Shown here: positions 1-16,393 of the stretch, piece after piece | Position numbering within the stretch: the first letter of the stretch is position 1 | How the letters are laid out: each line of letters starts with the position of its first letter | NCBI GenBank assembly: GCA_020252645.1 | Contig: JADCCN010000004.1 | Location: forward strand, 62,001 to 126,000 | From: Methylobacterium sp. | Lineage (GTDB): Bacteria > Pseudomonadota > Alphaproteobacteria > Rhizobiales > Beijerinckiaceae | DNA length: 64,000 bases | Direction: 5' to 3' | Translations under genes and position numbers: made by a program | Notes under the pieces: model-generated | The model's database searches: none | What the model was told of the DNA's origin: nothing | Seen by the model: the letters and a program-made list of their open reading frames with translations, nothing else

Positions 1-120
1 GTCGCGACGTCGACCGTGATGGTCGGCATGCTCGCCATCGGGCTTGTGGGCATGGTGATTGATGTCCTGCTGCGGCAGGGCGAGGGATGGTTGCGCCGTC
101 GGCGCGGACTGGAAGCGTGA
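1..120 (+). CDS. ABC transporter permease, C-terminal end (partial)
   Basis: The frame is open from the first base to the TGA at 118-120 and gives the last 39 residues of a protein whose start lies outside the window. The piece has a hydrophobic stretch rich in Val, Met, Leu and Ile, followed by a charged tail with four consecutive arginines. That is the usual ending of SsuC/TauC-type inner-membrane permeases, in which a last transmembrane helix is followed by a short basic cytoplasmic tail. The ATPase gene starts 9 bp downstream on the same strand, which supports the call. Too little is present to define the substrate, but the downstream genes point to a sulfonate. Confidence 0.7.
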   Translation, partial: VATSTVMVGMLAIGLVGMVIDVLLRQGEGWLRRRRGLEA

Positions 121-128
121 GGACACCG

Positions 129-926
129 ATGGGCTCGATCCAGTTCGAGAAGGTCGAAAAGGTTTTTGGCACTGCTGGTTCCGGCGTAAAAGTGCTGGAG
201 GACATCAATCTCAAGATCGCCGATCAGGAGTTTGTCGCGATTGTCGGTCCTTCAGGCTGCGGCAAAACCACCTGCCTGCGCATGGTCGCCGGGTTTGAGG
301 CGCCGAGTGCCGGGATTGTCAGTGTCAACGGCAAAGTCGTCACCGAGCCTGGGCCCGATCGTGCCGTGGTGTTTCAGCAATTTGCGTTGTTTCCGTGGAA
401 AACTGTTACCGAGAATATCGATTTCGGTTTGCGCAACAAGAACCTGCCGGCGGATCAGCGTGCCGGACTGATTGCCTCCGCCCTGAAGCTGATGAGCCTC
501 GAGACGCATGCAGATGCCTTCCCGCATCAGCTCTCCGGCGGCATGCAACAGCGTGTGGCCATCGCTCGCGCCTATGTTCTCGATCCGGAAGTGTTGCTGA
601 TGGACGAGCCCTTCGGCGCACTCGATGCGCAGACCCGCGTGGTGATGCAGGAGGAACTCGTGCGTCTCGCGCGGCGTAACCCGCGCACGGTGCTTTTCAT
701 CACTCATGCCGTGGATGAGGCCGTCTACCTCGCCGACCGCGTGGCCATCATGTCGCGACGCCCGGGGCGGATCAAGGAAGTGCTCGATATCAAGTCCGTG
801 CGCCAGAGCGAAAACTGGGACGGCCACGCCAGGATCGAGGATGTCATGGACCTCGAATCCTTCGTGCACCTGCGCACCCATATCTGGAAATCGCTGCGCG
901 AGGAAAAGGGTTTCAGGAATGTCTGA
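129..926 (+). CDS. ABC transporter ATP-binding protein, SsuB/TauB type
   Basis: This is the cytoplasmic ATPase of an importer, 265 aa, of normal length for the nitrate/sulfonate/taurine ATPase family. Visible motifs are the Walker A GPSGCGKTT, a Q-loop FQQFALFPW, the signature LSGGMQQR, Walker B VLLMDEPFGALD and the switch histidine in FITHAVDEA. I chose ATG 129, which has a GTGAGG ribosome site at the permease stop. An in-frame ATG at 87 would add a basic tail overlapping the permease. The DegT gene overlaps its end by 8 bp, so these genes are co-translated. The substrate is inferred from context to be DHPS or a related C3 sulfonate. Confidence 0.9.
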   Translation: MGSIQFEKVEKVFGTAGSGVKVLEDINLKIADQEFVAIVGPSGCGKTTCLRMVAGFEAPSAGIVSVNGKVVTEPGPDRAVVFQQFALFPWKTVTENIDFGLRNKNLPADQRAGLIASALKLMSLETHADAFPHQLSGGMQQRVAIARAYVLDPEVLLMDEPFGALDAQTRVVMQEELVRLARRNPRTVLFITHAVDEAVYLADRVAIMSRRPGRIKEVLDIKSVRQSENWDGHARIEDVMDLESFVHLRTHIWKSLREEKGFRNV

Positions 927-2169
927 GCCGCGTCGTCTGGCACGCGATCTGACGGAGCCGGAACCCATTCCGGCGGCGGGAATAGCGCGTGCGGTGGAGC
1001 TTATGCAATCAGGCCGGCTGTTTCGCTATGGCGAGATGGGCGCTGATCAACTCGACGTGTCGCTGCTCGAGCAGGAATTCGCGGCATTTGTGGGCCGCAA
1101 ATTCTGTGTGGCGGTGAATTCCGGCGGCTGCGCGATCTTCCTTGCGCTCAAGATTGCCGGTGTCGAGCCCGGTGACGCAGTGCTCGTCAATGGATTCACG
1201 CTTGCTCCGGTGCCTGGCGCCATCCTTCATGCAGGCGCACAGCCTGTCATCGTTGAAGTGACCGGCGATTACGTGATCGATCCGACAGATCTCCATGCAA
1301 AAATCCGTTCCAGCGGCGCGAAGACGCTGCTTCTCTCGCACATGCGTGGCCATATCGCCGATATGGACCAGGTCTCGCGGATTTGCGCAGGCGAGGGGGT
1401 CACGCTCGTTGAGGATTGCGCGCACGCGCTCTCGGCCTTCTGGGGTGAGCGGATGATCGGCAGCTTTGGCTTTGCCGCCGCCTACAGCGCGCAGACCTAC
1501 AAGCACCTGAATGCGGGCGAGGGCGGCTTCCTTGTGCTCGATGAGCCCGAGGCTGCGGCTCGCGCGATCCTGCATTCGGGCAGTTACATGCTGCATTCGC
1601 AGCACCTCTCGACGCCAGGGGCGGAGGCGCTGCGACGGGTCTCGAACGAAACGCCGAACTTTTCCATGCGGATGACCGCCCTTGCCGCGGCGATGCTGCG
1701 CCCGCAACTGGCAGAGCTTCCTCGCCGCGTCGCGCGGTGGAACACGATCCATCGTCGCATCGCCACGGGTTTGGCGCGTTCGCAATGGATCGCCCTGCCC
1801 AGGCCCGATGCGAAAGCTCGGTTCTCCGCGACATCGATCCAGTTTTCGATTCCCGCTCTCCCCCCTCAGGGCATCGAGATGGTTCTGGCGACCGCGAAAA
1901 GACGGGGCTTGCCCATCAAGTGGTTCGGTGCCGCCGAGCAGGCGGGTTTTACCAGCGCGCCGCGCCATTGGATTTACGCCGGTGAGCAGGGTGAACTCGC
2001 CCGGACGCACGCCGTTCTGGCAAGTCTCATGGATATCCGCACGCCCGTGACCCTCACGGATGACGAATGTGACCTCATCGCCGAGATCGTGCGGGAGGCC
2101 ATCGACGAGGCCATTGCAGCCTCTTCACAACAACCGGGCTCCAGCCCGGATCTCAAGCCATCGGCCTAA
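919..2169 (+). CDS. DegT/DnrJ/EryC1/StrS-family PLP aminotransferase
   Basis: A 416-aa fold-type-I aminotransferase of the sugar-aminotransferase family. The segment VEDCAHAL (Asp166) matches the PLP-pyridine-binding Asp, and Lys195 in TYKHLNAGEGG is the expected Schiff-base lysine. The start at 919 overlaps the ATPase gene by 8 bp, and the binding-protein gene follows 23 bp later, so it sits inside the transporter operon. Family members transfer an amino group to or from a keto group next to a hydroxymethyl or ring carbon. Within a DHPS operon an attractive inference is interconversion of cysteinolic acid (2-amino-3-hydroxypropane-1-sulfonate) and the 2-keto sulfonate. The sequence does not show the substrate. 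Confidence 0.85.
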   Translation: MSEPRRLARDLTEPEPIPAAGIARAVELMQSGRLFRYGEMGADQLDVSLLEQEFAAFVGRKFCVAVNSGGCAIFLALKIAGVEPGDAVLVNGFTLAPVPGAILHAGAQPVIVEVTGDYVIDPTDLHAKIRSSGAKTLLLSHMRGHIADMDQVSRICAGEGVTLVEDCAHALSAFWGERMIGSFGFAAAYSAQTYKHLNAGEGGFLVLDEPEAAARAILHSGSYMLHSQHLSTPGAEALRRVSNETPNFSMRMTALAAAMLRPQLAELPRRVARWNTIHRRIATGLARSQWIALPRPDAKARFSATSIQFSIPALPPQGIEMVLATAKRRGLPIKWFGAAEQAGFTSAPRHWIYAGEQGELARTHAVLASLMDIRTPVTLTDDECDLIAEIVREAIDEAIAASSQQPGSSPDLKPSA

Positions 2170-2192
2170 CGAACCAGTCAAGGGAGACAGGA

Positions 2193-3260
2193 ATGACCAA
2201 GGACAAGGGAATGAAACGCATCCTCAAGGGCTTGACCCTCGCGACCCTCATCGCCGCTTCGACACCGATGGTCGCTTCGGCACAGACGCCGATCGGCGTG
2301 AGCTATCAACCCTCGCTCTATTGGGCGCTGCCCTTCCACTATGCGAACGTCAAGGGCTGGTGGAAGGATGTGGGTCTTGCACCCAACTTCACCACCTTCC
2401 CGGCCGGTGCACCGCAAATCGCGGCCGCACCCTCGAGGTCGTGGGATGTGGGTGGCACCGGTTCGGTTCCGGCGATCTTGGGCGCAGTGCGCTTCAACAT
2501 CCTGACCATCGGCATCACCAATGATGAGTCCAAGACCAACGCCATGATGGTGCGCGGTGACAAGTTCGAAGCGATCAGGAGCAACCCGAAGCTCCTCGAA
2601 AACCAGAATATCCTGCTGACCACGAACTCCACAGTCGACTATGCAACCCGTAAATGTCTCGAGAAGATGGGGGTCTCGCAAGGATCAGTGAAATTTGTAA
2701 ACTTGGGACAGGCGCAGATCATCACCGCGCTGACCTCCAACAACGGCGATATTGCCGGGGTATGGGCACCCAATACCTACACGCTTGAAGATCGTGCCGG
2801 CGCCAAGTACCTCTGCTCGGGCGCTGATGCCGGTGCCATTGTTCCGGGAGCGCTCATCGTGCGGGCGGATTTCGCAAAAGAGCGCCCGGATGACGTGGCC
2901 AAGTTTCTTGCCGTCTATCTGCGTGGCTGGTCTTGGGCAAAGGCCAATCCTGCCGAAGCCCGCGCGCTGGCGCTTGATTTCTACAAGCAAGGCGGTCTCG
3001 AAGTCACGCCCCGCGCGATGGATCAGGAATTTGCGCTCCGCCCCACCTTCGGTCTCGACGAGCAGATCAAGATCATGGCGCGTGGTGCGAACCCTTCGAC
3101 CGTGGATGGCTGGTTCTCAGAAATCGGCAAGTTCATCAGCGATGTCGGCACGATTCCAGCCAACCCCGAAGCCCGGAACTATATCACGGACGAATTCATG
3201 AAGAAGGTTGCCGCTGATCCGAAGCTCAAGGCCTTCGCGACCGAATTCGACAAGAAGTAA
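2193..3260 (+). CDS. Periplasmic substrate-binding protein, sulfonate/taurine ABC type
   Basis: A 355-aa secreted solute receptor of the SsuA/TauA/NMT1-like family. It begins with a basic n-region, a hydrophobic core and a cleavage motif ASA before Gln31, and it has no lipobox. ATG 2193 is preceded by AGGGAG at 2181-2186. The mature part holds family-like segments such as the YWALPFHYANVKGWW region near the start, and VGGTGSVPAI, where the ligand loop normally sits. It follows the aminotransferase gene directly, and a hairpin after its stop could boost its level over the downstream enzymes. Its place with hps and suy genes suggests DHPS, sulfolactate or cysteinolate as ligand; this is inference. 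Confidence 0.88.
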   Translation: MTKDKGMKRILKGLTLATLIAASTPMVASAQTPIGVSYQPSLYWALPFHYANVKGWWKDVGLAPNFTTFPAGAPQIAAAPSRSWDVGGTGSVPAILGAVRFNILTIGITNDESKTNAMMVRGDKFEAIRSNPKLLENQNILLTTNSTVDYATRKCLEKMGVSQGSVKFVNLGQAQIITALTSNNGDIAGVWAPNTYTLEDRAGAKYLCSGADAGAIVPGALIVRADFAKERPDDVAKFLAVYLRGWSWAKANPAEARALALDFYKQGGLEVTPRAMDQEFALRPTFGLDEQIKIMARGANPSTVDGWFSEIGKFISDVGTIPANPEARNYITDEFMKKVAADPKLKAFATEFDKK

Positions 3261-3276
3261 CCGAGAGCCATCAAGA

Positions 3277-3306
3277 CCAGAGCGCATCGACACGCTCTGG
3301 TCCTTC
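3277..3306 (+). terminator. Hairpin after binding-protein gene (terminator or 3' stabiliser)
   Basis: CCAGAGCG at 3277-3284 pairs perfectly with CGCTCTGG at 3293-3300 across an 8-nt loop and is followed by a pyrimidine-rich run. A leaky terminator or mRNA stabiliser here would explain higher synthesis of the binding protein than of the enzymes downstream. Confidence 0.5.
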
Positions 3307-3312
3307 TCGCTT

Positions 3313-4749
<1,437 letters not shown>

Positions 4750-4750
<1 letters not shown>

Positions 4751-5523
4751 TGTCGTTTCGGTTGCACCAGCTCTTTGATCTCACAGGCAGGACCGCGCTC
4801 GTCACCGGTGGCAATAGCGGCATCGGGCTTGCGATGGCGCATGCGCTTGGCCTTGCCGGTGCCTCCGTTATTCTCGTGGCCCGACGGCAGGCCGAAACGG
4901 CCGATTCGATTGCCGGGCTCGCCCGCGACAATATCGATGCACGTGGCATTCTCGTCGATCTTGCTACGCCGGATTGTGCCAAGGTCTTGACCGATGCGCT
5001 TGCACGGTTGCAGGCGGAACCGGACATTCTCGTCAATGCCGCCGGCATCAATCTCCGCCAGCCTTTTTCGGAGGTGACGGCGGAAGCCTTCGATCTGCAT
5101 ATGGCCCTGCACCTGCGGGCTCCGTTCCTGCTGGCGCAAGCCTTAGCGCCATGCATGGCGGCGAAGGGGTTCGGGCGCATCATCAACCTCGCATCTTTGC
5201 AAAGCACACGCGCATTTCCGAACTCTGCGCCTTACGGCGCCGGCAAGGGCGGCATTGTCCAACTGACGCGCGCCATGGCCGAGGAATGGTCGAAACACGG
5301 TGTGACATGCAACGCGATCGCGCCGGGCTTTTTCCCGACACCGCTGACCGAGCCTGTTTTCAACGATCCCGCAAGGGCTGCAAGAAACGCCGCGCAAACC
5401 GCGATAGGGCGCAATGGCGTGCTCACCGATCTCTGGGGTGCGACGGTGTTTCTTGCTTCTCAAGCCTCAGCCTATATCTCGGGGCAAACGCTCGCCGTTG
5501 ATGGCGGATTTACAGCGAAATAG
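4750..5523 (+). CDS. hpsO: SDR-family dehydrogenase (DHPS 2-dehydrogenase, HpsO-like)
   Basis: A 257-aa classical short-chain dehydrogenase. It shows the cofactor loop TGGNSGIG at 19-26, NAAG at 96-99, and a catalytic Ser149, Tyr162 and Lys166. It starts within the stop of the hpsN-like gene, so translation is coupled. In the known DHPS pathway two 2-dehydrogenases, HpsO (SDR) and HpsP (medium-chain), together racemise DHPS through the 2-keto compound so that HpsN can use all of it. Position, order and family match HpsO. The assignment is by context; SDR substrate specificity cannot be read from the sequence. Confidence 0.75.
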
Positions 5524-5532
5524 GAGTGAGCA

Positions 5533-6525
5533 ATGAAGGCTCTTGTCTATGACGGGCCAAACAGCCTCGCCTATCGCGACGAGCCAAATCCGTCCCCCGA
5601 GGCAGATGATCTGATCGTGCGTGTGCATGCCGTGGGCATTTGTGGCTCGGATATGCATGCCTATCACGGGCATGATAACCGCCGTCCGGCGCCTCTGATC
5701 CTCGGGCATGAAGCCGCAGGGACGATTGAAGGCGGGCCGCGGCATGGGGAGCGCGTCACGATCAATCCACTCGTCGTTGATCCCGTCTGCCCCTATGCGA
5801 TGGAGGGGCGCTGGCACCTTTCGCCCACACGCCAGATACTCTCCATGCCGCCGAGACAGGGCGCATTTGCGGAATATGTGCGCATTCCACCCCGCAATCT
5901 GGTGCGAATCCCCGATCATCTTCCGTTTGAGCAGGCTGCTCTTGCCGAGCCGATTGCGGTCTCGTGGCATGCCGCCCGGATCGGCTCCGGGAAGCTTCAT
6001 CAGCCGCTGGCGGCCTGCCGCGTTGTTGTGATCGGGGGAGGTGCGATTGGCCTGACATCGGCGATTGTCGCGCGGCTTTTTGGCGCCGGGGATATCGCGA
6101 TTGGCGAGACCAATCCCTTGCGCCGCGAGACGCTGCGTCGGACAGAGGGTTTTGAGGCCTATGCCCCTGGCGAAAATGATCCGAAAGAGAACAGCGTCGA
6201 TCTCGTCATCGATGCGGTTGGCGCCGTTGGCACGCGCATCGCCGCAAGCCGGATGATACGCCCCGGCGGCGTGATCGTGCATCTCGGCCTGCTGCCCGGG
6301 CTTGAGGGGCTCGATATCCGCAAGTTGACGCTGCAGGAAGTGACGGTGAGCGGCTCCTATTGCTATACGCCGCATGATTTCGAGCACACGGTCGAGGCGC
6401 TCGCGCGGCGTCGTCTCGGCCGTTTGCAATGGTTCGAGGAGCGGCCGCTGTCTGAAGGGGCTCGCGCTTTTCACGATATCGATGCGGGCGCAACGCCCGC
6501 TGCCAAGATCGTGCTGCGCGTCTAG
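5533..6525 (+). CDS. hpsP: Medium-chain zinc alcohol dehydrogenase (DHPS 2-dehydrogenase, HpsP-like)
   Basis: A 330-aa GroES-like plus Rossmann enzyme. The catalytic zinc site is recognisable as Cys37 in GICGSD and His59-Glu60 in LGHEAAG. The nucleotide loop VIGGGAIG lies at about 167-174. The four-cysteine structural zinc lobe found in most relatives is missing: the region after NPLVVDPVC keeps only one Cys and is shortened. It follows the SDR gene by 9 bp with AGGAG at 5522-5526. It is the expected partner of HpsO in racemising DHPS. The stop codon lies inside a repeat copy, which separates this operon from suyAB. Confidence 0.75.
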   Translation: MKALVYDGPNSLAYRDEPNPSPEADDLIVRVHAVGICGSDMHAYHGHDNRRPAPLILGHEAAGTIEGGPRHGERVTINPLVVDPVCPYAMEGRWHLSPTRQILSMPPRQGAFAEYVRIPPRNLVRIPDHLPFEQAALAEPIAVSWHAARIGSGKLHQPLAACRVVVIGGGAIGLTSAIVARLFGAGDIAIGETNPLRRETLRRTEGFEAYAPGENDPKENSVDLVIDAVGAVGTRIAASRMIRPGGVIVHLGLLPGLEGLDIRKLTLQEVTVSGSYCYTPHDFEHTVEALARRRLGRLQWFEERPLSEGARAFHDIDAGATPAAKIVLRV

Positions 6526-6624
6526 AGCATGATGTGTTCAAACGGAAGCACATCATGCTCTAAGATCTCGATTTACCGAATTTTCTTTCGAAGAACCGGT
6601 ATCCAATTCTTCGGAAAATGCTCT
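6524..6624. repeat. Intergenic two-hairpin repeat, copy 2
   Basis: The first stem is a perfect 13-bp pairing of AGAGCATGATGTG (6524-6536) with CACATCATGCTCT (6549-6561). The second half carries CGAAGAACCGGTATCC and closes with AAAATGCTCT. It overlaps the stop codon of the hpsP-like gene. Confidence 0.85.
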
Positions 6625-6677
6625 GGGAATTCGGTTGCAAAGCCCGTTCGGATGCCTGTTTCTGCTGCATCGGCCGA

Positions 6678-6711
6678 TTGACAGGCCTCTCAATCTTATA
6701 TCTTATATAAG
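6678..6711 (+). promoter_or_regulatory. Promoter and palindromic operator of suyAB
   Basis: A consensus -35 box TTGACA lies at 6678-6683. The perfect palindrome CTTATATAAG (6702-6711) covers the expected -10 region 17-19 bp further on, with a second half-site CTTATA at 6695-6700 and another AATAAG just after. An operator lying on the -10 box implies repression that is lifted by a pathway intermediate. No regulator gene is in view. Confidence 0.55.
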
Positions 6712-6784
6712 AATAAGAAGCGGCGATCCTCATCGTCAGGGTTCTCCGCCATGGCAGACACAAGAGGACAGGGAGCATCTTCGT

Positions 6785-7072
6785 ATGGCGATCCCCCATT
6801 TGCTCGTTCATGAGAAAAAAGACACGGTTGGCGTGGTTGTTGTCGAAGGCCTGAAGGCCGGAACCGACATGCTCGCCGTTGTCACCCACGACAATTCGGA
6901 TTTCCGCATCATTGCCAAGATGGACATTCCCATCGGCCACAAGATCGCGCTCAAGCCGATCAAGAAGGGCGAGACGATCTGGAAATACGGGCAGGATATC
7001 GGGATTGCGAAGGCGGATATCGCCGTTGGGGAGCATGTGCATGTGCACAATGCCAAAACGAAGCGCTGGTGA
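6785..7072 (+). CDS. suyA: (R)-sulfolactate sulfo-lyase, small subunit (SuyA)
   Basis: A 95-aa protein of the SAF/UxaA N-terminal type, in which the small subunit of altronate-dehydratase-like lyases is a separate chain. It has the family pattern [12 protein letters not shown] and ends with [14 protein letters not shown] 6785 has GGGAG at 6771-6775. The large subunit follows 11 bp later. With SuyB it eliminates sulfite from (R)-sulfolactate to give pyruvate. A UxaA-type sugar-acid dehydratase is the alternative, but the hps genes and the sulfite-type exporter support sulfo-lyase. Confidence 0.85.
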
Positions 7073-7083
7073 GGAGAGCAACC

Positions 7084-8376
7084 ATGGCAAGTGCACCGAT
7101 TGTTGCGAATTTCTCGCTCAACCAGAACAAGCTGGCCTCCGTGAAGGGGCGCAAGATCGAAGCTCCGGCATTCAAATCCCCTGTTGCGCCCAAACGCCGT
7201 GGCGGGCTCGCCAAAGACAGCATCATGGCCTGGCGCCGTGAAAATGGGCGCATTGGTGTGCGCAATCACGTGGTCATGCTGCCGCTGGACGATCTCTCGA
7301 ATGCTGCCTGTGAAGCGGTTGCAAACAACGTCAAGGGTGTGCTGGCGCTGCCTCATGCCTATGGCCGCTTGCAGTTCGGCCTCGATCTCGATCTGCATTT
7401 CCGCACGCTGATCGGCATCGGCTCCAATCCGAATGTCGCGGCGGTTGTGGTGATCGGGATCGAGGATGGCTGGACCAAGATTGTCGTCGATGGCATCGCC
7501 AAGACCGGCAAGCCGGTCGTCGGCTTCGGCATTGAAGGGCATGGCGATATCGCCGTGATCGCGAAGGCCTCCTACGTGGCCAAGGAATTCTCACAATGGG
7601 CGAGCGAACTTCAGCGCGAGAAGTGCCCGATCAGCGATCTCTGGATTTCCACGAAATGCGGCGAAAGCGACACGACAACGGGTCTCTCCTCCTGCCCTGC
7701 CGTCGGCAATATGTATGACAAGCTCATCCCGCAGGGCATCCATGGCGTGTTCGGCGAAACCTCGGAAATCACCGGCGCGGAGCATCTGTGCAAGGCGCGC
7801 GCAGCGACCCCAGAAATCGGCGAACGCTGGTACAAGATGTGGAAAGCCTATCAGGATGACGTGATCGAGGCCCACAAAACCTCGGATCTCTCGGACAGCC
7901 AGCCGACCAAGGGTAACATCGCGGGCGGCCTCACGACGATCGAGGAAAAGGCGCTTGGCAATCTGGAGAAGATTGGCCGTGAATGCACCTATATCGACAT
8001 TCTCGATCCGGCAGAGGCGCCGACCAAGGGGCCGGGTCTCTACTTCATGGACACGTCTTCGGCAGCCGCCGAATGCGTGACGCTGATGGCCGCTGGCGGC
8101 TATGTGATCCACACCTTCCCGACCGGGCAGGGCAATGTGATCGGCAACCCGATTGTTCCCGTGATCAAGATCACCGGCAATCCAAAAACAATGCGGACCA
8201 TGCCGGAGCATATCGATGTGGATGTTTCGGGCATCCTGCGCCGTGACATGACCATCAGCCAGGCCGGTGATGCGCTGATCGACAATATCATGCGCACGGC
8301 GAATGGCCGCCTCACGGCGGCGGAGGCGCTCGGGCATCGCGAGTTCGTGATGACCAAGCTCTACCGGAGCGCGTGA
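7084..8376 (+). CDS. suyB: (R)-sulfolactate sulfo-lyase, large subunit (SuyB)
   Basis: A 430-aa large subunit of the UxaA/altronate-dehydratase family. The segment [20 protein letters not shown] contains Cys192 and Cys204, matching the region that binds the metal or Fe-S centre in relatives. GRIGVRNH near residue 56 and HTFPTGQGN near the C-terminus are further family marks. ATG 7084 has GAGGAGAG at 7071-7078. The product acts in the cytoplasm with SuyA. The gene precedes a SuyZ-like exporter, the order known in sulfolactate degraders, so sulfite made here would be removed at once. Confidence 0.87.
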
Positions 8377-8386
8377 TGCAAACGCC

Positions 8387-9436
8387 ATGAAAGTCGGCCC
8401 GGAAGCTGATGGCTCGGCGAAGGCCTGGAGCAGGGCTCCGGGCCTTTTTCTCTCGCTTGGCGTCGCAATGGGAGCGGTGCTGGTCGCGCCGCTGATCAAG
8501 GGCATTACCGGCGCAAGCCTGGCCTTGCCGGATATGGTGATCGCGCTTGTCATCGGCATCTTGCTGTTCCCGATCTCACAGAAGCCGATCTTCCAGCCTG
8601 GCATCACCTATGCCGTGAAAACGTTGCTGCGTTACGCGATTGCGCTGCTTGGTCTGCGCATCGCGGCTGGCGATATTGCCTTGCTGGGCTGGGGCACGGC
8701 GGCGATGATTGTTGTCGTTATGGTTCTCACGCTTCTCTCCGGCTTGTGGCTGGCGAAACTCCTTGGGCGCGATGCCGGGCTGGGCGCGCTTGCGGGGGCC
8801 GCCAACGCGGTGTGTGGTGCATCCGCGACGCTTGCGACCGCGACCGTTGTTCCGGACTACAAGAACAAATCCGCCGATATCGCCTTCACCGTGGTAATGG
8901 CCAACGCGATCTCCACCCTTGTGATGCTCGCTTACCCGCCGCTTTGCCGCTGGCTTGGCCTCTCGGACCATGAAACCGGGATCATGCTCGGACTGACCAT
9001 TCAGGATATGGCACAGGTTGTCGGGGCGGCTTACGCTGTGTCGGAGCCCGTGGGGAACACGGCGGTCATCGTCAAGCTGTTCCGCGTGCTGTTGCTGCTG
9101 CCCATGGTGCTGCTGGTGGGCTGGTATTTCACCCGCCAAGGGGGCACGGCTGGCGGTGCCAAGGTGCCCGTGCCGGGCTTCGCATTTGTGTTTATCGCGC
9201 TCGCCGCGCTCAATTCCGTGCTGCCCGCAACGCCGATCGCCGAGGCTTACCTTCCGGTCAAGGCGCTGCTCGTCGAAGCTTCGCGCTGGGGCATGCTGAT
9301 CGCGATTGCCGCCCTGGGACTTGGCACATCGCTGGGTGCGCTCCTTTCCATTGGCTGGCGCCATGGCGCGGTGTTCTGCGGTGCGGGGATAGTCATCCTG
9401 ATGCTGGCAACCGCCAGTATATTTCTCATGAGGTAG
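8387..9436 (+). CDS. suyZ: Sulfite/sulfate exporter of the YeiH family (SuyZ-like)
   Basis: A 349-aa membrane protein with about ten hydrophobic helices of the YeiH/UPF0324 'putative sulfate exporter' family. Visible family segments are ANAVCGASA near 138 and TIQDMAQVVGAAYAVS near 205, which resemble the pore repeats of that family. It begins 10 bp after suyB without a strong ribosome site and is followed after 3 bp by the slcC relic. In sulfolactate degraders the homologous suyZ is thought to export the sulfite or sulfate formed by SuyAB. The transported ion is inferred from context. Confidence 0.8.
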   Translation: MKVGPEADGSAKAWSRAPGLFLSLGVAMGAVLVAPLIKGITGASLALPDMVIALVIGILLFPISQKPIFQPGITYAVKTLLRYAIALLGLRIAAGDIALLGWGTAAMIVVVMVLTLLSGLWLAKLLGRDAGLGALAGAANAVCGASATLATATVVPDYKNKSADIAFTVVMANAISTLVMLAYPPLCRWLGLSDHETGIMLGLTIQDMAQVVGAAYAVSEPVGNTAVIVKLFRVLLLLPMVLLVGWYFTRQGGTAGGAKVPVPGFAFVFIALAALNSVLPATPIAEAYLPVKALLVEASRWGMLIAIAALGLGTSLGALLSIGWRHGAVFCGAGIVILMLATASIFLMR

Positions 9437-9439
9437 GCA

Positions 9440-9844
9440 ATGGCCGATATCGTCATGACCGAGTTCATGGATGAAGCGGCGGTCGCCGAGCGGGGCATTG
9501 CTGTCCTTCCGGCGACGGGGGCAAGTGACCTCTCCGTGGCGGAATGGGTGATTGCCAATGCGGTGATGCTTCTGCGCGGCGCTTACCATGCCACGCGCGA
9601 CATGATCGCAGGCGCCTGGCCACGCAACCGTTTGATGGGGCGAGAGCTTTCGGGGCGGATCGGCGGGGCAGCACTGGATGTCTTTCAGAACGAACCACTC
9701 TCGGCCGCGAGCGGAGCGGTGTTTGCGGGTTGCCCGCACCTGATCCTCACGCCGCATATCGCGGGTGTCGCCCTCGAATCCAATATCCGTGTCTCGAATT
9801 TGATCGCCGAGAAAGTTTTGGCGCATCTGGGAAAAACCGCATGA
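9440..9844 (+). pseudogene. slcC: Internally deleted (S)-sulfolactate dehydrogenase (slcC relic)
   Basis: The 134-aa frame is a patchwork of a D-2-hydroxyacid dehydrogenase. It starts with IVMTEFMDEAAV (an N-terminus like SlcC), jumps to RGIAVLPATGASD, which belongs near residue 90 of an intact enzyme, runs to MGRELSG, and jumps again to GGAALDVFQNEPL and LTPHIAGV near the C-terminus. The NAD-binding Rossmann core with GxGxxG and the catalytic Arg and Glu are absent. Intact members have more than 300 residues. Both joints keep frame. The stop overlaps the comC start (ATGA), so the remnant may persist as a translated leader for comC. It is very unlikely to be active. Confidence 0.75.
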
Positions 9845-10839
9845 GTGCCACCACGGTTTCGTTGTCGGAAGCTGTGGCACGCGTCAGCGCGGCGCTTGAG
9901 CGCTGCCGCACATTGCCGGAAAACGCCGCCATCGTCGCGCGGGCCCTTGTCGCGGCCGAGGCGGACGGGCTCAAGGGCCACGGGTTTTCGCGCGTGCCGA
10001 GCTACGCGGCCCAAGCCAAGGTCGGCAAGGTGGACGGCATGGCGCGGCCGGTTGTCGAGCACGCCACCCCATCCCTCATTCGGATCGACGCATGCCATGG
10101 CTTTGCCTATCCCGCGATCCAGACGGCGATCTCTGCCCTGAAAGAAGCGACTCCGATGATGGGCGTTGCGGTCGCGGCAATCCGGCGTTCGCATCATTGT
10201 GGTGTTGCGGGCCATCCGGTCGAGCGATTGGCGGAGGCGGGCCTTGTGGCCATGTTGTTCGCGAATACCCCTGCGGCGATGGCGCCCTGGGGCGGAAAAA
10301 CCGCGACCTTCGGCACAAACCCAATCGCCTTTGCTTGCCCGTTGCCGAACCAGCCGCCGATCGTGATTGATCTTTCTTTGTCGAAAGTCGCTCGCGGCAA
10401 CATCCTCGCGGCGAAGCAGAAGGGGCAGCCCATTCCCGAGGGCTGGGCGCTCGACCCGGAAGGCCAGCCCACGACGGATGCCGATGCTGCACTGAAGGGC
10501 ACGATGCTACCCCTTGGTGATGCCAAAGGAACGGCGCTCGCCTTGATGGTGGAGTTGCTGGCGGCAGGCCTGACAGGTGCCACTTTTGCGGCTGATGCGA
10601 CCTCGTTTCTGGATGACAAGGGCGGACCGCCGGGTACCGGCCAGCTGCTGATCGCATTTGATCCGAGAATGATCGGTGGGCCCGGCGCAGTGGCTCATTT
10701 CAGTCGCCTTGCCAGTCAGATCACGGCGCAGGTCGGTGTGAGGCTGCCTGGAAACCGGCGGATGGATCTGCGCGCCAAAGCGAAAACGGAGGGGCTAGCT
10801 GTCGCCTCCTCGCTGCTTGCCGAGATTGACGCGCTCTAG
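9841..10839 (+). CDS. comC: (R)-sulfolactate dehydrogenase / Ldh-family malate-lactate dehydrogenase (ComC-like)
   Basis: A 332-aa member of the malate/L-lactate dehydrogenase family, distinct from the lactate dehydrogenase fold. The segment SHHCGVAGHPVERLAEAG (from about 120) contains the catalytic His and the Gly-rich stretch, and TFGTNPIAFACP matches the cofactor region. It overlaps the slcC relic by 4 bp. In known sulfolactate degraders SlcC and ComC together racemise sulfolactate through sulfopyruvate. With SlcC broken, ComC alone would only interconvert (R)-sulfolactate and sulfopyruvate. The stop lies within a repeat copy, which ends the island. Confidence 0.82.
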   Translation: MSATTVSLSEAVARVSAALERCRTLPENAAIVARALVAAEADGLKGHGFSRVPSYAAQAKVGKVDGMARPVVEHATPSLIRIDACHGFAYPAIQTAISALKEATPMMGVAVAAIRRSHHCGVAGHPVERLAEAGLVAMLFANTPAAMAPWGGKTATFGTNPIAFACPLPNQPPIVIDLSLSKVARGNILAAKQKGQPIPEGWALDPEGQPTTDADAALKGTMLPLGDAKGTALALMVELLAAGLTGATFAADATSFLDDKGGPPGTGQLLIAFDPRMIGGPGAVAHFSRLASQITAQVGVRLPGNRRMDLRAKAKTEGLAVASSLLAEIDAL

Positions 10840-11062: not shown

Positions 11063-13501
11063 TCACGCCACCTTGAAGCGCTGCGCGGATTGCTGGAGCT
11101 GATCGGAAATCGAGCCCAGTTCCTTCGCGCGCTGATCCAGCGTTCCGGCGGAATCAAAAGACTTTGCCGCCACGTGGTTCACGGCGTTTGCATCGTTCGC
11201 AGCAGCGGAAATCGCCTGGTTCGCATCGCTCATGTAGGACGAAATCGAGCCGACCTCACCGGACATGCGATCCACGGATTGCGCCACGAACTCTACCTTT
11301 CCGGCCACTTCCTGCACGTCGTCATTCACGTGGCGGGCAAGCGCGGCCTGCGCTTCGGCGCTGTCGGCGATGATACCGATCGTCCGGTTGATGTCGCCGA
11401 GCACATCCCTCAGCATGGCAAATCCCCGGGTCGCCTGCTGGGTGCCGGCGCGCATGGCCGCCACGCGGGCCTTCACATCGGCTGTCGCCCGCTGGGTCTG
11501 GTTTGCCAGCGCCTTCACTTCGGAAGCGACCACGGCAAAACCTTTGCCCGCCTCGCCTGCGCGCGCGGCCTCGATCGTGGCATTGAGGGCAAGAAGGTTG
11601 GTGCTCGAGGCAATGCCCTCGATGAGTTCGGCGATCTCGTTGATCTGTTCGGAGGCCGCGACGAGGTTCACCATCTGGCTTTCGGAATGACCGATCACCG
11701 CATTGGCGCTTTGCGAGACCGAGCGCCCGTCGCGGGCGGCATGGGCCACGTCGTTCACCGAATGGGAAAGCTTGCCCATGCGGTCGGCGAGTTTCTGGAT
11801 GCGCTGGGTCATGTCCCGCGCGGCATGGGAAACGCGCTCGGCATCCGCGCGCAGGCCGCTGGCCTGGCCCACCGCGGCGCTGGCCCGCCCGCTGAGCGAG
11901 GTCGCGGCCATCGCCATCTTGCCGGAGGTGGAGGAAACCGCGCTCGAATCCTGCAGGAACTGGTCGGAAAGCCCGCCGATCACATGGGACGCATTGTTGA
12001 TGCGGGCCGCATGCCGGGTGATTTCCGCCTGCACGCGCTGGAACTCATCCAGAAACGGATTGATGATCTGGGCGATCTCGGCCGCTTCGTCGCCCGAGGC
12101 CGCATCGAGACGGCGGGTAAGGTCGCGCTCGAGCTGGGTGATGCGATAGAGTTCCTGCTGGAGGGTGCCCGTGCCGATCGCGGCGCCGTGCTCGGCGGCA
12201 TTCAGGCCGCGCTGTTCATCCGCTTCCGGCAGGCGGATGCCGATGGTCCGCTTCATCGCCCAGAACGTCAGGAGACCCATGCCGAAGGCCCAGAGGAAGG
12301 CCGCGCCTGCCCCCTTCGCCTGAACAAGAAAGGAACTCATCACGCTCAGCCCGTTCAGCTTCTCGGGCATCGCGAAGAAGGGCACCAGCAACGTGCCGAG
12401 CACGCCCGAAACGCCATGCACGCCCACGACGCCGACGACATCGTCGAGCTTCATCCGGTGGAGCACGAAATCCTCGACGAAAACCACGGATGCCCCGCAG
12501 ATCGCGCCGATCGCGATGGCACCCTTGGGGCCGACGGCATCACAGCCGGCGGTGATCCCGACAAGTCCGGCGAGCAGGCCGTTCACCAGGCGATTGGTCA
12601 GGTAGGTGCCATCCTTCGCCCGCCCGATCAGCATCGCGATGATGCCCCCGAAGGATGCGCCGAGCAGCGTGTTCGCAGCGATCTTGCCCACCGCGCCGCT
12701 GGCCGCCGCGGTGGAGCCGGCATTGAAGCCGATCCACCCCACCAGCAGCAGCATGGCGCCCGTGGCGCTCAGCACATGCGAATGGCCATGGATCGGCAAG
12801 GCCTTGCCATTGGCATCGAAGCGGCCGATGCGCGGACCCAGCACGATGATGCCCGCCAGCGCGATCCATGCACCGACGGAATGCACCACGGTGGAACCGG
12901 CGAAATCGATGAAGCCGCTGGCGGCAAGCCAGGGCTTGTTCTCCGTCACGAGGCCCGCGCCCCAGGCCCAATGGCCGAAAACCGGATAGATCAGCAGGCC
13001 GACAACGGCCGCCAGCACGATATAGGCCGCATAGCTCATGCGCTCGGCCACGGCACCGGAGACGATCGTCGCGGCCGTGCCGGCAAAGGCCACCTGAAAA
13101 ACGAAGAAGGTGTAGGTCCAGTCATCGAGGCCGGAATAGCCCCAGAGCGTGCCCGGCGACCCGAACAGCCCCATGACCGTGGGGCCGAACATGATCATGA
13201 AGCCGAAAACGGTGAAGCAGGCAGCGGACACGAAGAAATCCACGACGTTCTTCTGCGCCACATTGATGGAATTCTTCGAGCGGACCATGCCTGCTTCCAG
13301 CAAAAGGAAACCGGCCTGCATCAGCAGCACGAGGGCGGCAGCGGTCATCAGCCAGACATGGTTCAGATGCGCGCGCAACTGCTCGACATCGCCTGCGAGT
13401 TTCGCAAGATCCGGTGGAGCAGCGGCGAAAGTGCCGGAAGCACCCAGAACGACGAGCGCTGCGCTTGCAACCGCAAAACGGCTGAACAGACGGACGAGCA
13501 T
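11063..13501 (-). CDS. Ammonium transporter fused to a methyl-accepting chemotaxis signalling domain (Amt-MCP)
   Basis: An 812-aa fusion. A signal peptide-like start is followed by an Amt/Mep/Rh domain (about 35-445). This keeps the ammonium-binding Asp199 in DFAGSTVVH, the pore pair His207 and His362 (GVHGVSG), and the AEHG motif of the Amt C-terminus. A linker leads to long Ala/Ser-rich coiled coils (about 500-805) with the MCP hairpin tip [19 protein letters not shown] and [12 protein letters not shown]. There is no HAMP domain. ATG 13501 is chosen for GGGAGG just upstream. The architecture implies an ammonium transceptor signalling to CheA rather than a plain transporter. Pore residues are kept, so transport is possible too. 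Confidence 0.88.
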
Positions 13502-13826
13502 TCTGCCTCCCAACGCCGGAATGGTTCGATTTCGGAACCTGGCGGCGAGGAACGATGCAGTTTTTCAGTAAACGAGCGGTGAAAATTGCGCAAAAATCAG
13601 CCTGGCTTCACATGCATAAATGCAAAAGACCATGTGTTTTCTGCTTCCTGAGCAGAAATCGAATGTTTTTTTCCGTTCTCTGTCAGCCGGGTCATGCGCG
13701 GATTTCCGGAATTGCCGGTTCTGCCTCGAGGTCAAACACTTCCGCGCGCCGGACTTGCAGGCTCAAGACCGGCCCAGTAAATCGCAAAGTGCAGTTTCGA
13801 ACCATGATGCGCGCAGCGGGCAGCCC
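13502..13826. promoter_or_regulatory. Divergent promoter region between amt-mcp and the hybrid kinase gene
   Basis: 325 bp without a credible gene, more A/T-rich than its surroundings. It holds the palindrome TGCATAAATGCA (13613-13624) and an inverted repeat TCTGCT/AGCAGA (13640-13656) followed by a T-run at 13665-13671. Both transcripts should start here. I found no sigma-54 spacing match. Confidence 0.4.
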
Positions 13827-15599
13827 ATGACAGGCCAGACATCGAAGGCACAGATTGGCGGGGCGGATGACGCGGGGGAACTGGTCGAGCTGCTGGCCCG
13901 ACAGATGCCGTTCGTTCTCGGCGCGGTGCTGGTGGTGGCTCCCACGGCGGCCTATGTGCATGGCCTGCGCCTTGGCCCCAGCGCGCTGGCCTGGAACTGG
14001 CTGATCGCAGCAATCGTGCTCGCCGCCCTGCGCGGGCTTTTCGTGGTGGCCTATTGGCGCTTGCGCGCCGATATGCCGCTCTGGGTTTGGCGCAACGGGT
14101 TCATGCTCGGCAGCCTTGCTTCCGGCAGCCTGTTCGGCTGGTTCGGATGGGAGGTGACCGGCTCGGGCGATGCGCCCCTGATGCTTTTCATCATCATGAT
14201 GCTGGTGGGGCTCACGGCGGGTTCCGTTGCCTCGCTTTCAGCCGATCGGCTTGTCTATGCCGCCTTCGCGATCAGCGCGATGGGTCCGGTCGTGGCGCGG
14301 TTCGCGCTTGCCGACGACGAGACCGGCCGCTGGATGGCCCTGCTGGGCCTCGTGTTTCTCGTCACGCATCTCGGCTATTCGATGCTGCAGAACCGGACGA
14401 TGCGCGATCTCATCCGGCTTCGGAACCAGGAGAAGGCGTTCTCGCAGGAACTGGCCGAGGCGCGGGACCGGGCGGAGCGCTCGAACAGCGAGAAAACGCG
14501 CTTCCTGCTGGCGGCGGGCCATGATCTGCGCCAGCCGCTCTACGCGATCCGCCTGCTGCTCGACTCGCTGGAAAGTGCCGGGAAGGATCTGCGGGCCGAA
14601 CGCATCGCGACCATCGCGGAATCGGTCAATGCCATCTCCGATCTGCTGGAGCGCATGCTGGAAGCGGCGCGCGCCAGCTCGAAGGGCTATCAACCCCACC
14701 TCGCGCCGGTGGAGCTCGATTCGGTGTTTCGTCAGGTCGGCGTGGAATTCGCGGTGGAGGCGGCCAACAAGTCGCTCGACCTCTGCTTCGTGGGAACAAG
14801 CCGCTGGGCGCGCGGCGAGCCGACCCTTCTCACCCAGATCCTGAGGAACTTTGTCGGCAATGCCGTGCGATACACCGAAAGAGGGCGCGTTCTGGTCGGC
14901 GTCCGGCTCCGGGGCGAGAAGCTCGAATTGCAGGTCTGGGATACCGGGCCCGGCATCGCGGAGGAGAATCTGTCACGCATCTTCGAGCCGTTTCACCAGC
15001 TCGCCAATCCGGGCCGGCAGGCCGGGCGCGGGCATGGCCTGGGGCTCACCATCGCGCGCAGCATGGCCGAATTGATCGGGGGGACCATCAGGGTGCGTTC
15101 ACGGGCCGGCCGGGGCTCGATGTTCGCGATCACGCTTCCGGCCGCTGCGGCTCCGCCCCATGTCGAGGCGATGGCCGAGATGCTGGTCTCCGCTCCGCCC
15201 GAGCGGCCGGCTGCCGGCCGCCTGCTGCTCGTGGAGGATCACACTCCGGTGCGCGATATCCTGCGCGAGTTGCTGGCGGGCTGGGGCTACGCGGTCGCCA
15301 CCAGTGCCGAGGCCGAACAGGCGCTCGCCGATCTCGCGGCAGGCGGCGCGATGCCGGATGTCATCGTCTCGGATCTGCGCCTGCCGGGCGCGATGGACGG
15401 GCTCGACCTGATCCGCACCATCCGGGCGCGTGCCGGCTTCCCCATCCCCGCCCTGCTGGTGACGGCGGACCCGGCTGCGCCGAAACCGGGGGAGAACATT
15501 CTCGTGCTTCAGAAGCCGGTCGGCGCGCATGCCCTTCGCGAGAAGCTCGACGAGGCGTTTCTGCTCAGCCGATCCGCGCACGCTCCAGGAAATCCTTGA
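13827..15599 (+). CDS. Membrane hybrid sensor histidine kinase with receiver domain
   Basis: A 590-aa protein. Hydrophobic helices from about 25 to 190 form a membrane sensor without a periplasmic domain. A coiled coil rich in Arg and Glu precedes the HisKA box AAGHDLRQPLYAIRLLLDSL, whose His is the phosphoacceptor. The ATPase part shows an N-box (ILRNFVGNAVRYT), DTGPGIAEEN and a G2 box GRGHGLGL. A C-terminal receiver has LLLVEDHTPVRD and the phosphoacceptor Asp in VIVSDLRLPG. The HDLRQPL form of the H-box is typical of a subfamily of hybrid kinases in proteobacteria. It ends in a 35-bp overlap with the convergent LuxR regulator gene, the probable partner. Confidence 0.88.
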   Translation: MTGQTSKAQIGGADDAGELVELLARQMPFVLGAVLVVAPTAAYVHGLRLGPSALAWNWLIAAIVLAALRGLFVVAYWRLRADMPLWVWRNGFMLGSLASGSLFGWFGWEVTGSGDAPLMLFIIMMLVGLTAGSVASLSADRLVYAAFAISAMGPVVARFALADDETGRWMALLGLVFLVTHLGYSMLQNRTMRDLIRLRNQEKAFSQELAEARDRAERSNSEKTRFLLAAGHDLRQPLYAIRLLLDSLESAGKDLRAERIATIAESVNAISDLLERMLEAARASSKGYQPHLAPVELDSVFRQVGVEFAVEAANKSLDLCFVGTSRWARGEPTLLTQILRNFVGNAVRYTERGRVLVGVRLRGEKLELQVWDTGPGIAEENLSRIFEPFHQLANPGRQAGRGHGLGLTIARSMAELIGGTIRVRSRAGRGSMFAITLPAAAAPPHVEAMAEMLVSAPPERPAAGRLLLVEDHTPVRDILRELLAGWGYAVATSAEAEQALADLAAGGAMPDVIVSDLRLPGAMDGLDLIRTIRARAGFPIPALLVTADPAAPKPGENILVLQKPVGAHALREKLDEAFLLSRSAHAPGNP

Positions 15600-16155
15600 C
15601 CGCGCCGCGATGCGCGAGCCCGAAGCGCTTGAAAACGCTGGCGAGATGCGCGCGGACGGTGTTCTCGCTGATGCCGAGGCTGCGGCCGATCACCTTGTTC
15701 TGAAGGCCGCGCGCGCAGAGAACCAGGATATCTCGCTCGCGGGGGGTGAGAACGGGGCGGTTTGTGCCGTTGAGCGTTTCCGGCTCGCAGCTCGTCAATT
15801 CCCCCAGAGCGGACAGGATCGCCTCGGGACCATCCGCCTTCGACAGCACGCCGGCCGCCCCTTCGAGAGCCGGCGAGGCCAGGAGATCGCGCGGATCGGA
15901 GCCCGTCACGACAATGACGGGCAGACCGGGGCACAGGTGCTGGAGCGCCAGATAGGTTTCCGTGCCGCTCGAATCCGGCAGGGCGAGATCGAGGATGACA
16001 GCATCGAGCGGACCGGCCAGCAACCTTCCCCTCGCTTCGGCCAGCGCGGCGCATTCCTCGATCGCCACGCCCGGAAAGGCACATTGCAAGGCTGTCCGCA
16101 GGCCTACCCGCACAAGGGGATGATCATCGACAATCAGGATATTCATCGGACGCAT
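15565..16155 (-). CDS. NarL/FixJ-type response regulator with LuxR HTH
   Basis: A 196-aa two-domain regulator. The receiver starts ILIVDDHPLVRVG and carries the phosphorylatable Asp in VILDLALPDSSG. The C-terminal LuxR helix-turn-helix reads LTPRERDILVLCARGLQNKVIG followed by ISENTVRAHLASVFKRFG. I prefer the ATG at 16155 because GGGTGGG lies just upstream; ATG 16146 would also give a full receiver. Its last 35 bp overlap the kinase gene tail to tail. It is the likely output partner of that kinase; its target genes are not shown by the sequence. Confidence 0.87.
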   Translation of the reverse strand: MRPMNILIVDDHPLVRVGLRTALQCAFPGVAIEECAALAEARGRLLAGPLDAVILDLALPDSSGTETYLALQHLCPGLPVIVVTGSDPRDLLASPALEGAAGVLSKADGPEAILSALGELTSCEPETLNGTNRPVLTPRERDILVLCARGLQNKVIGRSLGISENTVRAHLASVFKRFGLAHRGAVKDFLERARIG

Positions 16156-16393
16156 TCGACCCACCCGAGTGATGCCTTCCGCAAAAAACGATATCCGGGC
16201 CGCGCCCAAGGCGAAGCCGCGCCACAGGCCGGATATTGCAATACATCCGGAGAGCACGCCGACGCATAGCCTCGGCGATGGACTAGTCCGTTGTCGTCGT
16301 TCCCGAAAGCCGTTGCGCCGGCACTCATCCGATCATGATGCGGCAGGGCGTGCGTTTCCGGCAAGCCCCGTTTTCTGCTCGGCTCGGGCGCGA

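Follow-up and report, generated by a model that had tools for sequence, protein, structure and literature searches.

A conserved DegT-fold aminotransferase within a C3-sulfonate catabolic island of Methylobacterium sp. as a candidate cysteinolate aminotransferase

The first 10,839 bases of a 64,000-nucleotide stretch of Methylobacterium sp. DNA (contig JADCCN010000004.1, bases 62001-126000, forward strand; hereafter the window) hold a 2,3-dihydroxypropane-1-sulfonate (DHPS)/sulfolactate island (1..10839). All of its genes lie on the + strand and encode an ATP-binding cassette (ABC) importer, a DegT-family protein, HpsN, HpsO and HpsP, SuyA and SuyB, a YeiH-type exporter, and ComC. DegT-fold enzymes of known function use mostly ketoses or cyclitols as substrates, and the locus raises the question of what such an aminotransferase does among genes of sulfonate breakdown. 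We read the island as one C3-sulfonate catabolic unit in which DegT transaminates a C3 aminosulfonate, most likely cysteinolate (2-amino-3-hydroxypropane-1-sulfonate), and on sequence comparison give this reading a probability of about 0.5. DegT is a component of C3-sulfonate metabolism without a name in the libraries searched, and the assignment is specific and testable.

A first-pass annotation of the window had placed DegT in the operon because of an 8-bp overlap with the ATPase gene, and gene order in related loci bore this out. The overlap is exact (DegT ATG at 919-921, ATPase stop at 924-926); an 8- or 11-base overlap, or a one-base spacing, was found at the ATPase/DegT junction in 29 of 31 related loci, scored with the DegT start codon nearest to such an overlap and with L023 and L041 left unresolved by the script. 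A peptide-pattern scan of 84,980 species genomes yielded 57 stretches, 36 of them encoding a DegT relative and 32 being of the window type. DegT lies 3' of the importer ATPase gene in all 32 window-type loci and between the ATPase and binding-protein genes in 31, the other (L057) being cut inside DegT. The full set of LacI regulator, two permeases, ATPase, DegT, binding protein, HpsN, HpsO, and HpsP was complete in 27/32 loci; the five incomplete ones (L033, L040, L041, L045, and L057) are cut by contig ends. A conserved co-occurrence of DegT with hpsN and suyAB had been named in the annotation as a check. The HpsN part held, whereas suyB lies within the stretch in only two of the 32 loci (L050 and L056), so that the suy module falls outside the conserved core. 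The non-window-type stretches from the scan were L051, L052, L054, and L055, with HpsN seen in L051 only.

Whole-genome content agreed with this linkage. Among 61 relatives, the window's own genome included, 17 have both DegT and HpsN, one has DegT only (G043), two have HpsN only (G036 and G045), and 41 have neither (p = 5e-12, a statistic that ignores kinship). The corresponding counts for DegT and SuyB were 16 with both, two with DegT only, 10 with SuyB only, and 33 with neither, and SuyB occurs somewhere in the genome in 11/11 DegT genomes of the window's own family. Of the 18 DegT genomes, 13 have the DegT and HpsN genes as neighbors, and G010 has them on separate short contigs. DegT is part of the operon unit and a real, conserved component of C3-sulfonate metabolism.

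The pairing with HpsN recurs in unrelated gene orders, in which more distant DegT relatives (44-52% identity) stand beside HpsN. A tblastn search detected DegT in 11 of 72,556 plasmid records, and seven of the 11 were examined (L058-L064). In L059-L063, DegT is accompanied by CuyA, an amino-acid racemase, and HpsN, the adjoining carrier being TauABC, another ABC system, a tripartite ATP-independent periplasmic (TRAP) transporter, or none. L058 (Polaromonas) carries the same set with HpsN split in two pieces, and L064 (Roseovarius, DegT 36% identity) has no CuyA/racemase/HpsN neighborhood. The CuyA of L059 passes the D-cysteate sulfo-lyase model (546.9, cut-off 450), that of L062 scores 562.2, and the L059 racemase passes the cysteate racemase model (280.9, cut-off 190). 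From plasmids and genomes together, 14 loci were labeled CuyA-type; they encode a CuyB-like racemase in 14/14 cases, CuyA in 13 (not L065), and HpsN in 11 (not L065, L069, or L139), and no match to HpsO, HpsP, SuyB, ComC, SlcC, or SlcD was obtained within these locus stretches. Another arrangement consists of TauABC, HpsN, and DegT without these genes (L127 and L131), and HpsN and DegT are also neighbors in L051, L067, and L068. Near the DegT-HpsN pair of L051 (6780-7997) and L127 (11963-13189), whose hosts are an Acidimicrobiales metagenome-assembled genome and a genome of the window's class, lies a gene for a pyridoxal 5'-phosphate enzyme (PF00291; threonine-synthase-like by eye), possibly an alternative cysteate lyase.

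HpsP was sought in 14 whole genomes (E<=1e-40) and was present in both window-type genomes (G007 and G018), in three of eight CuyA-type genomes (G057, G053, and G235; not in G043, G516, G207, G384, or G088), and in one of four pair-type genomes (G042; not in G138, G284, or G047). G053 was grouped as CuyA-type by its racemase and TauABC, with no CuyA seen there, and G284 is 70% complete. Seven of the nine non-window-type genomes with HpsN in the DegT stretch have no HpsP (G516, G207, G384, G088, G138, G284, and G047), and the HpsP-positive G057 and G042 have a second HpsN adjoining HpsP. Because HpsP is missing from seven and the rest have this second copy, the DegT-paired HpsN probably does something other than plain DHPS conversion, and the pattern is the strongest sign that it does not simply serve DHPS. 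In G057, contig C1 carries both an HpsN-HpsP-SuyB cluster (376912) and a CuyA-DegT-racemase-HpsN cluster (417804-422345), some 40 kb apart. All 55 aligned HpsN sequences keep the four catalytic/sulfonate residues. Residues separating a cysteinolate-type from a DHPS-type HpsN were also sought; seven positions part CuyA-type from most DHPS-type sequences, but not consistently, and the marker was rejected. The CuyA-type residue occurs at positions 135, 139, 226, 228, and 370 in 3/3 HpsN of the Roseobacter/Paracoccus type whose clusters include HpsO and HpsP, at position 191 in 2/3, and at position 205 in 0/3.

The operon starts approximately 1.5 kb upstream of the window at two ABC permease genes, and divergent LacI and GntR genes lie upstream of the permeases, outside the window. 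The first-pass annotation had missed the slcC remnant; its placement of hpsN-, hpsO-, and hpsP-like genes, suyA-suyB, an exporter, and comC agrees with identities, domains, and catalytic residues. The features of the island are as follows.

1..120, +, ABC permease 2, 3' end (PF00528; complete gene L003:11305-12120; permease 1 just upstream, outside the window)
87..926, +, ABC importer ATPase (PF00005; start may be 129; 72% identical to P. versutus PvATP)
919..2169, +, DegT/DnrJ/EryC1/StrS-fold aminotransferase, predicted C3-aminosulfonate (cysteinolate) aminotransferase (PF01041, 185.8 bits)
2193..3260, +, periplasmic binding protein, NMT1/THI5-like, SsuA/TauA superfamily (PF09084; 57% identical to the P. 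versutus binding protein)
3437..4750, +, HpsN, (R)-DHPS 3-dehydrogenase (by homology and catalytic residues)
4750..5523, +, HpsO, DHPS dehydrogenase of the short-chain dehydrogenase/reductase type (by homology and motif spacing)
5533..6525, +, HpsP, zinc-dependent DHPS dehydrogenase (by homology and residues)
6785..7072, +, SuyA, (R)-sulfolactate sulfo-lyase small subunit (SAF domain; 68% identical to P. versutus SuyA)
7084..8376, +, SuyB, sulfolactate sulfo-lyase large subunit (PF20629/PF04295; 78% identical to P. versutus, 68% to C. pinatubonensis; start codon uncertain, 7087-8373 used in searches)
8387..9436, +, YeiH-type putative sulfite/sulfate exporter (PF03601)
9440..9844, +, slcC remnant (matches P. 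versutus SlcC at residues 75-143 and 249-310 only)
9841..10839, +, ComC-like (R)-sulfolactate dehydrogenase (PF02615; 67% identical to P. versutus ComC; full length)

The predicted backbone from DHPS through (R)-sulfolactate to pyruvate and sulfite is ordinary for known clusters. The ABC importer would bring in DHPS-like sulfonates, HpsO, HpsP, and HpsN would convert DHPS to (R)-sulfolactate, SuyAB would split the latter into pyruvate and sulfite, and the YeiH protein would export the sulfur. Window HpsN (70% identical to C. pinatubonensis HpsN; phmmer 1.6e-207 to 8v35) keeps His126 of the sulfonate motif G-R-Y-A/S-H, which is described in PMC11382572, and the catalytic Glu318, His319, and Asp352. 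HpsO is 58% identical to C. pinatubonensis HpsO and has the Ser/Gln/Tyr/Lys spacing of solved HpsO, as judged by motif spacing and not by alignment to the solved sequence; HpsP (1e-109 to solved HpsP 8wwd) keeps His59/Glu60/Glu139. The catalytic residues of HpsO and HpsP used for comparison are those given in PMC11131964. SuyA is 68% and 49% identical to its counterparts in P. versutus and C. pinatubonensis, respectively, and SuyAB supplies the downstream lyase of an HpsNOP-type DHPS cluster. ComC scored 189.9 bits against NF040650, under the cut-off of 500. The slcC remnant corresponds to an S-sulfolactate dehydrogenase minus most of the N-terminal part and the NAD-binding core; the gene is full length in the relative L056 and in P. 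versutus, and in L050 comC directly follows the exporter gene. A domain and profile search of the island genes found neither CuyA nor CuyB.

Four known DHPS clusters were compared with the window. The hpsRNOUP-suyAB cluster of Cupriavidus pinatubonensis (HN-2 plasmid p2, L123) shares with it the pathway, a LacI-type regulator, and similar proteins (HpsN 70%, HpsO 58%, HpsP 44%, SuyB 68% identity), but it has a major facilitator superfamily importer gene that separates hpsO from the presumed hpsP, and no DegT in the stretch examined. Among Roseobacter-type clusters, Leisingera (L125) has similar HpsN (55%), HpsO (57%), and HpsP (55%); unlike the window, L125 and Rhodovulum (L124) have a TRAP importer and no DegT in the stretch examined, with ComDE in L125. 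A similar arrangement lies on plasmid pTAV3 of Paracoccus versutus (L126), which has an ABC importer (57-72% identity), hpsNOP, suyAB, an exporter, SlcC, ComC, and LacI. It differs from the window in that no DegT occurs in the stretch examined, the ABC genes form a separate divergent operon, slcC is full length, and an extra carrier of the tripartite tricarboxylate transporter type is present.

The Paracoccus importer is orthologous to that of the window (binding protein 57%, ATPase 72%, permeases 68-70% identity) and is paired with hpsNOP/suyAB. The sulfonate-type ABC system, which the first-pass annotation had singled out as unusual, is therefore not distinguishing. Most simply, DegT would be a later addition to an existing DHPS-type operon, or the Paracoccus operon would have lost it. 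The window binding protein belongs to the PF09084 superfamily and falls short of the curated SsuA/TauA-type sulfonate-importer models (TIGR01728, 95.6 bits, cut-off 163.5; taurine model, 51.5, cut-off 304.25). Its predicted structure had a mean predicted local distance difference test score (pLDDT) of 48 and was not used.

DegT itself scores above the PF01041 cut-off, and the Schiff-base Lys195, assigned by motif, and a GEGG motif are present. Seven NCBIfam models match it, all far under cut-off (best PseC, 114.3 of 423.5), so that none of the curated sugar-aminotransferase equivalogs in NCBIfam (PseC, ArnB, DesI, and others) covers it, and the Pfam and NCBIfam searches of the window protein returned no model named cysteinolate aminotransferase. 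An AlphaFold model (27 sequences, pLDDT 88.4) has the DegT fold, with 3-amino-5-hydroxybenzoic acid (AHBA) synthase and sugar aminotransferases as nearest structures and 18-27% identity over the fold in the best 50 matches. AHBA synthase (1b9h) and BtrR (2c7t) share with DegT the fold, the Schiff-base lysine, and the GEGG motif, but not the genomic context of sulfonate catabolism. Across 90 DegT sequences from window-type, CuyA-type, and stand-alone settings, one common set of residues shows no or almost no variation. Residues R33, N91, P97, C167, H196, W274, K334, W335, T345, S346, and Y353 differ in a distant clade of eight sequences, in which R36, Y37, R143, K195, and R374 are kept. That clade (35-40% identity to the window protein) comprises L096-L098, L141, and L144:99 from family f48 and L064, L145, and L161 from others, mostly second copies within the same family of genomes. 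In a tree built by a quick method and midpoint-rooted, the window type forms one clade (99*), and the other settings are mixed in its sister group. The tree rows labeled ros were assigned by locus range, not taxonomy, with a few from other families and seven in the distant clade.

DegT would take the C2 amine off cysteinolate, giving 3-hydroxy-2-oxopropane-1-sulfonate, for which two exits can be drawn. In one, HpsO/HpsP would reduce the ketone to DHPS; in the other, HpsN would oxidize it to sulfopyruvate, which ComC would reduce to (R)-sulfolactate. The first exit, which the first-pass annotation had favored, conflicts with Ruegeria pomeroyi HpsO and HpsP, which according to PMC11131964 oxidize the C3 hydroxyl to give sulfolactaldehyde; PMC11382572 still terms them DHPS 2-oxidoreductases. 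With sulfolactaldehyde as their product, the ketone would leave via HpsN and ComC. A solved structure of C. pinatubonensis HpsN holds L-cysteate in the same manner as R-sulfolactate (PMC11382572), which makes HpsN acting on cysteinolate chemically reasonable. The cysteinolate part of the earlier proposal thus fared better than its route: it is the best single explanation, as it accounts for all three settings of DegT by one reaction, C2 amine exchange of a hydroxymethyl compound. We infer the substrate of DegT, the direction and stereochemistry of its reaction, and the exit used. Cysteinolic acid is described as an abundant microalgal solute in PMC8703288. The open-licence literature, as far as its accessible text goes, gives no gene for cysteinolic acid breakdown, with earlier proposals possible in subscription journals, and nothing was found in it that pairs DegT with sulfolactate, or DHPS and cysteinol with a transaminase.

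The third setting is a stand-alone one. DegT searches that included the window's own genome gave 22 positives in 385 genomes of its class and 29 in 398 genomes of its phylum, 24 of the latter 29 in family f48, which is presumed to be Rhodobacteraceae from genome content and roseobacter plasmid relatives. The best-matching DegT copies of f48 have no reference sulfonate genes alongside. In 18 f48 loci (among L140-L166), inspected by eye with a simple open reading frame caller, neither SalA nor sulfonate genes were recognized around the stand-alone DegT; a glmS-like gene was recognized in 13/18, the other neighbors being a glmU-like gene and general metabolism. The first-pass annotation had held that a neighborhood unrelated to hps/suy in relatives would speak against its proposal; the hps linkage recurs and the proposal is not refuted, while many Rhodobacteraceae copies do stand alone.

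The roseobacter aminolipid has cysteinolic acid as head group, the acyltransferase SalA performs the last step of its formation, and the first gene awaits identification, according to PMC11631085 and PMC8319176. A SalA candidate was recognized in L177 and L178 by published residues (HX5D and an Arg at His+26); position His+80 is Val in L177 and Ala in L178. These two genomes also encode another HX5D family (L175 and L176), which has His at His+26 and was set aside. Among 149 f48 genomes, DegT is present in 120, SalA in 111, and CuyA in 51, the following co-occurrence counts being neither corrected for kinship nor weighted by genome completeness. DegT and SalA occur together in 106, DegT only in 14, SalA only in five, and neither in 24. 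The link to CuyA is weaker (both 47, DegT only 73, CuyA only 4, neither 25), and SalA is present in 65 of the 73 DegT-positive, CuyA-negative genomes. Eight DegT matches adjoin CuyA; when the six genomes with only such a DegT were dropped, the SalA table became 103/11/8/27. In the class sample, DegT accompanies SalA in 4/4 genomes and occurs without it in 18.

Tentatively, and with less confidence than the assignment in the window, the DegT clade may be the cysteinolate aminotransferase that is missing from the C3-sulfonate network, with a different use in each of the three settings. In the window type it would feed the oxygen series and SuyAB. In the CuyA type it would pass the amine from cysteinolate to sulfopyruvate, feeding CuyB/CuyA, with HpsN regenerating sulfopyruvate. 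In Rhodobacteraceae it would run in the biosynthetic direction and make the cysteinolic acid head group of the SalA aminolipid. Gene order ties the DegT family to sulfonate catabolism, and co-occurrence ties it to the SalA lipid, which makes both gaps, the gene for cysteinolate breakdown and the first lipid gene, directly testable.

Several results weigh against the cysteinolate reading. Several candidate binding residues (R36, Y37, R143, K195, and R374) are common to the distant clade, so alone they are no pointer to a sulfonate. Sulfolactaldehyde as product of HpsO/HpsP removes the simplest exit for the 2-ketone, and P. versutus, with its ABC system, hpsNOP, and suyAB, shows that DegT is not needed for DHPS. 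No HpsN adjoining DegT was detected in G043, G053, G054, or G060 (G060 and G043 are on short contigs). DegT and SalA are both widespread in one family, their association may instead stem from a common marine ancestry, and each gene occurs without the other in part of the 149 genomes (14 and five, respectively). The intact comC beside a broken slcC fits the HpsN/ComC exit and equally well the transamination of cysteate, and DegT would also suit the vacant position of a sulfopyruvate-to-cysteate aminotransferase in CuyA-type clusters.

These last two points belong to the main rival, a serious one though less probable in our estimate than the cysteinolate reading, in which DegT acts as the aminotransferase between cysteate and sulfopyruvate ('CoA'). 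Imported cysteate would then become sulfopyruvate in the window, ComC would reduce this to (R)-sulfolactate, and SuyAB would follow; in CuyA-type clusters DegT would run from sulfopyruvate to cysteate and so supply CuyB and CuyA. CuyA-CuyB cysteate desulfonation is indeed represented near many DegT relatives outside the window clade, by CuyA and the CuyB-like racemase, whereas the window uses SuyAB, and the absence of slcC between exporter and comC in L050 is in line with the intact comC of the window. The rival stays a contender, since PMC11382572 states that no gene is known in R. pomeroyi for the aminotransferase of this route. However, with no match to ComC, SlcC, or SlcD in the 14 CuyA-type loci (within the loci searched), a local source of sulfopyruvate is missing there unless HpsN makes it. 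Cysteate transamination also leaves HpsN as a constant partner unexplained, CuyA is absent, at the cut-off used, from 73 of the 120 DegT-positive f48 genomes, and the solved structures nearest to DegT are those of enzymes of the ketose/cyclitol type. An improbable variant has DegT transaminate 3-amino-2-hydroxypropane-1-sulfonate to sulfolactaldehyde, which HpsN would oxidize directly to sulfolactate. C. pinatubonensis HpsN accepts sulfolactaldehyde better than R-DHPS (PMC11382572), a preference that would explain the bare HpsN-DegT pair of L127 and L131; this variant does not account for CuyA and CuyB, which act on cysteate, and its substrate did not turn up as an environmental compound, although no search was aimed at it. 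That DegT is a sugar-nucleotide aminotransferase carried in the operon as a passenger we consider very improbable. DegT shares fold and family with sugar aminotransferases, and the glmS-like neighbor of the stand-alone copies points the same way, but the scores far under the NCBIfam cut-offs and the conservation of the DegT-HpsN linkage in several unrelated gene orders argue against it.

Downstream of the island, the window encodes an ammonium transporter domain fused to a methyl-accepting chemotaxis signaling domain (11063-13513, -; PF00909 and PF00015) and a hybrid histidine kinase with a receiver domain (13620-15599, +), the latter convergent with the gene of a LuxR-type response regulator (15565-16257, -).

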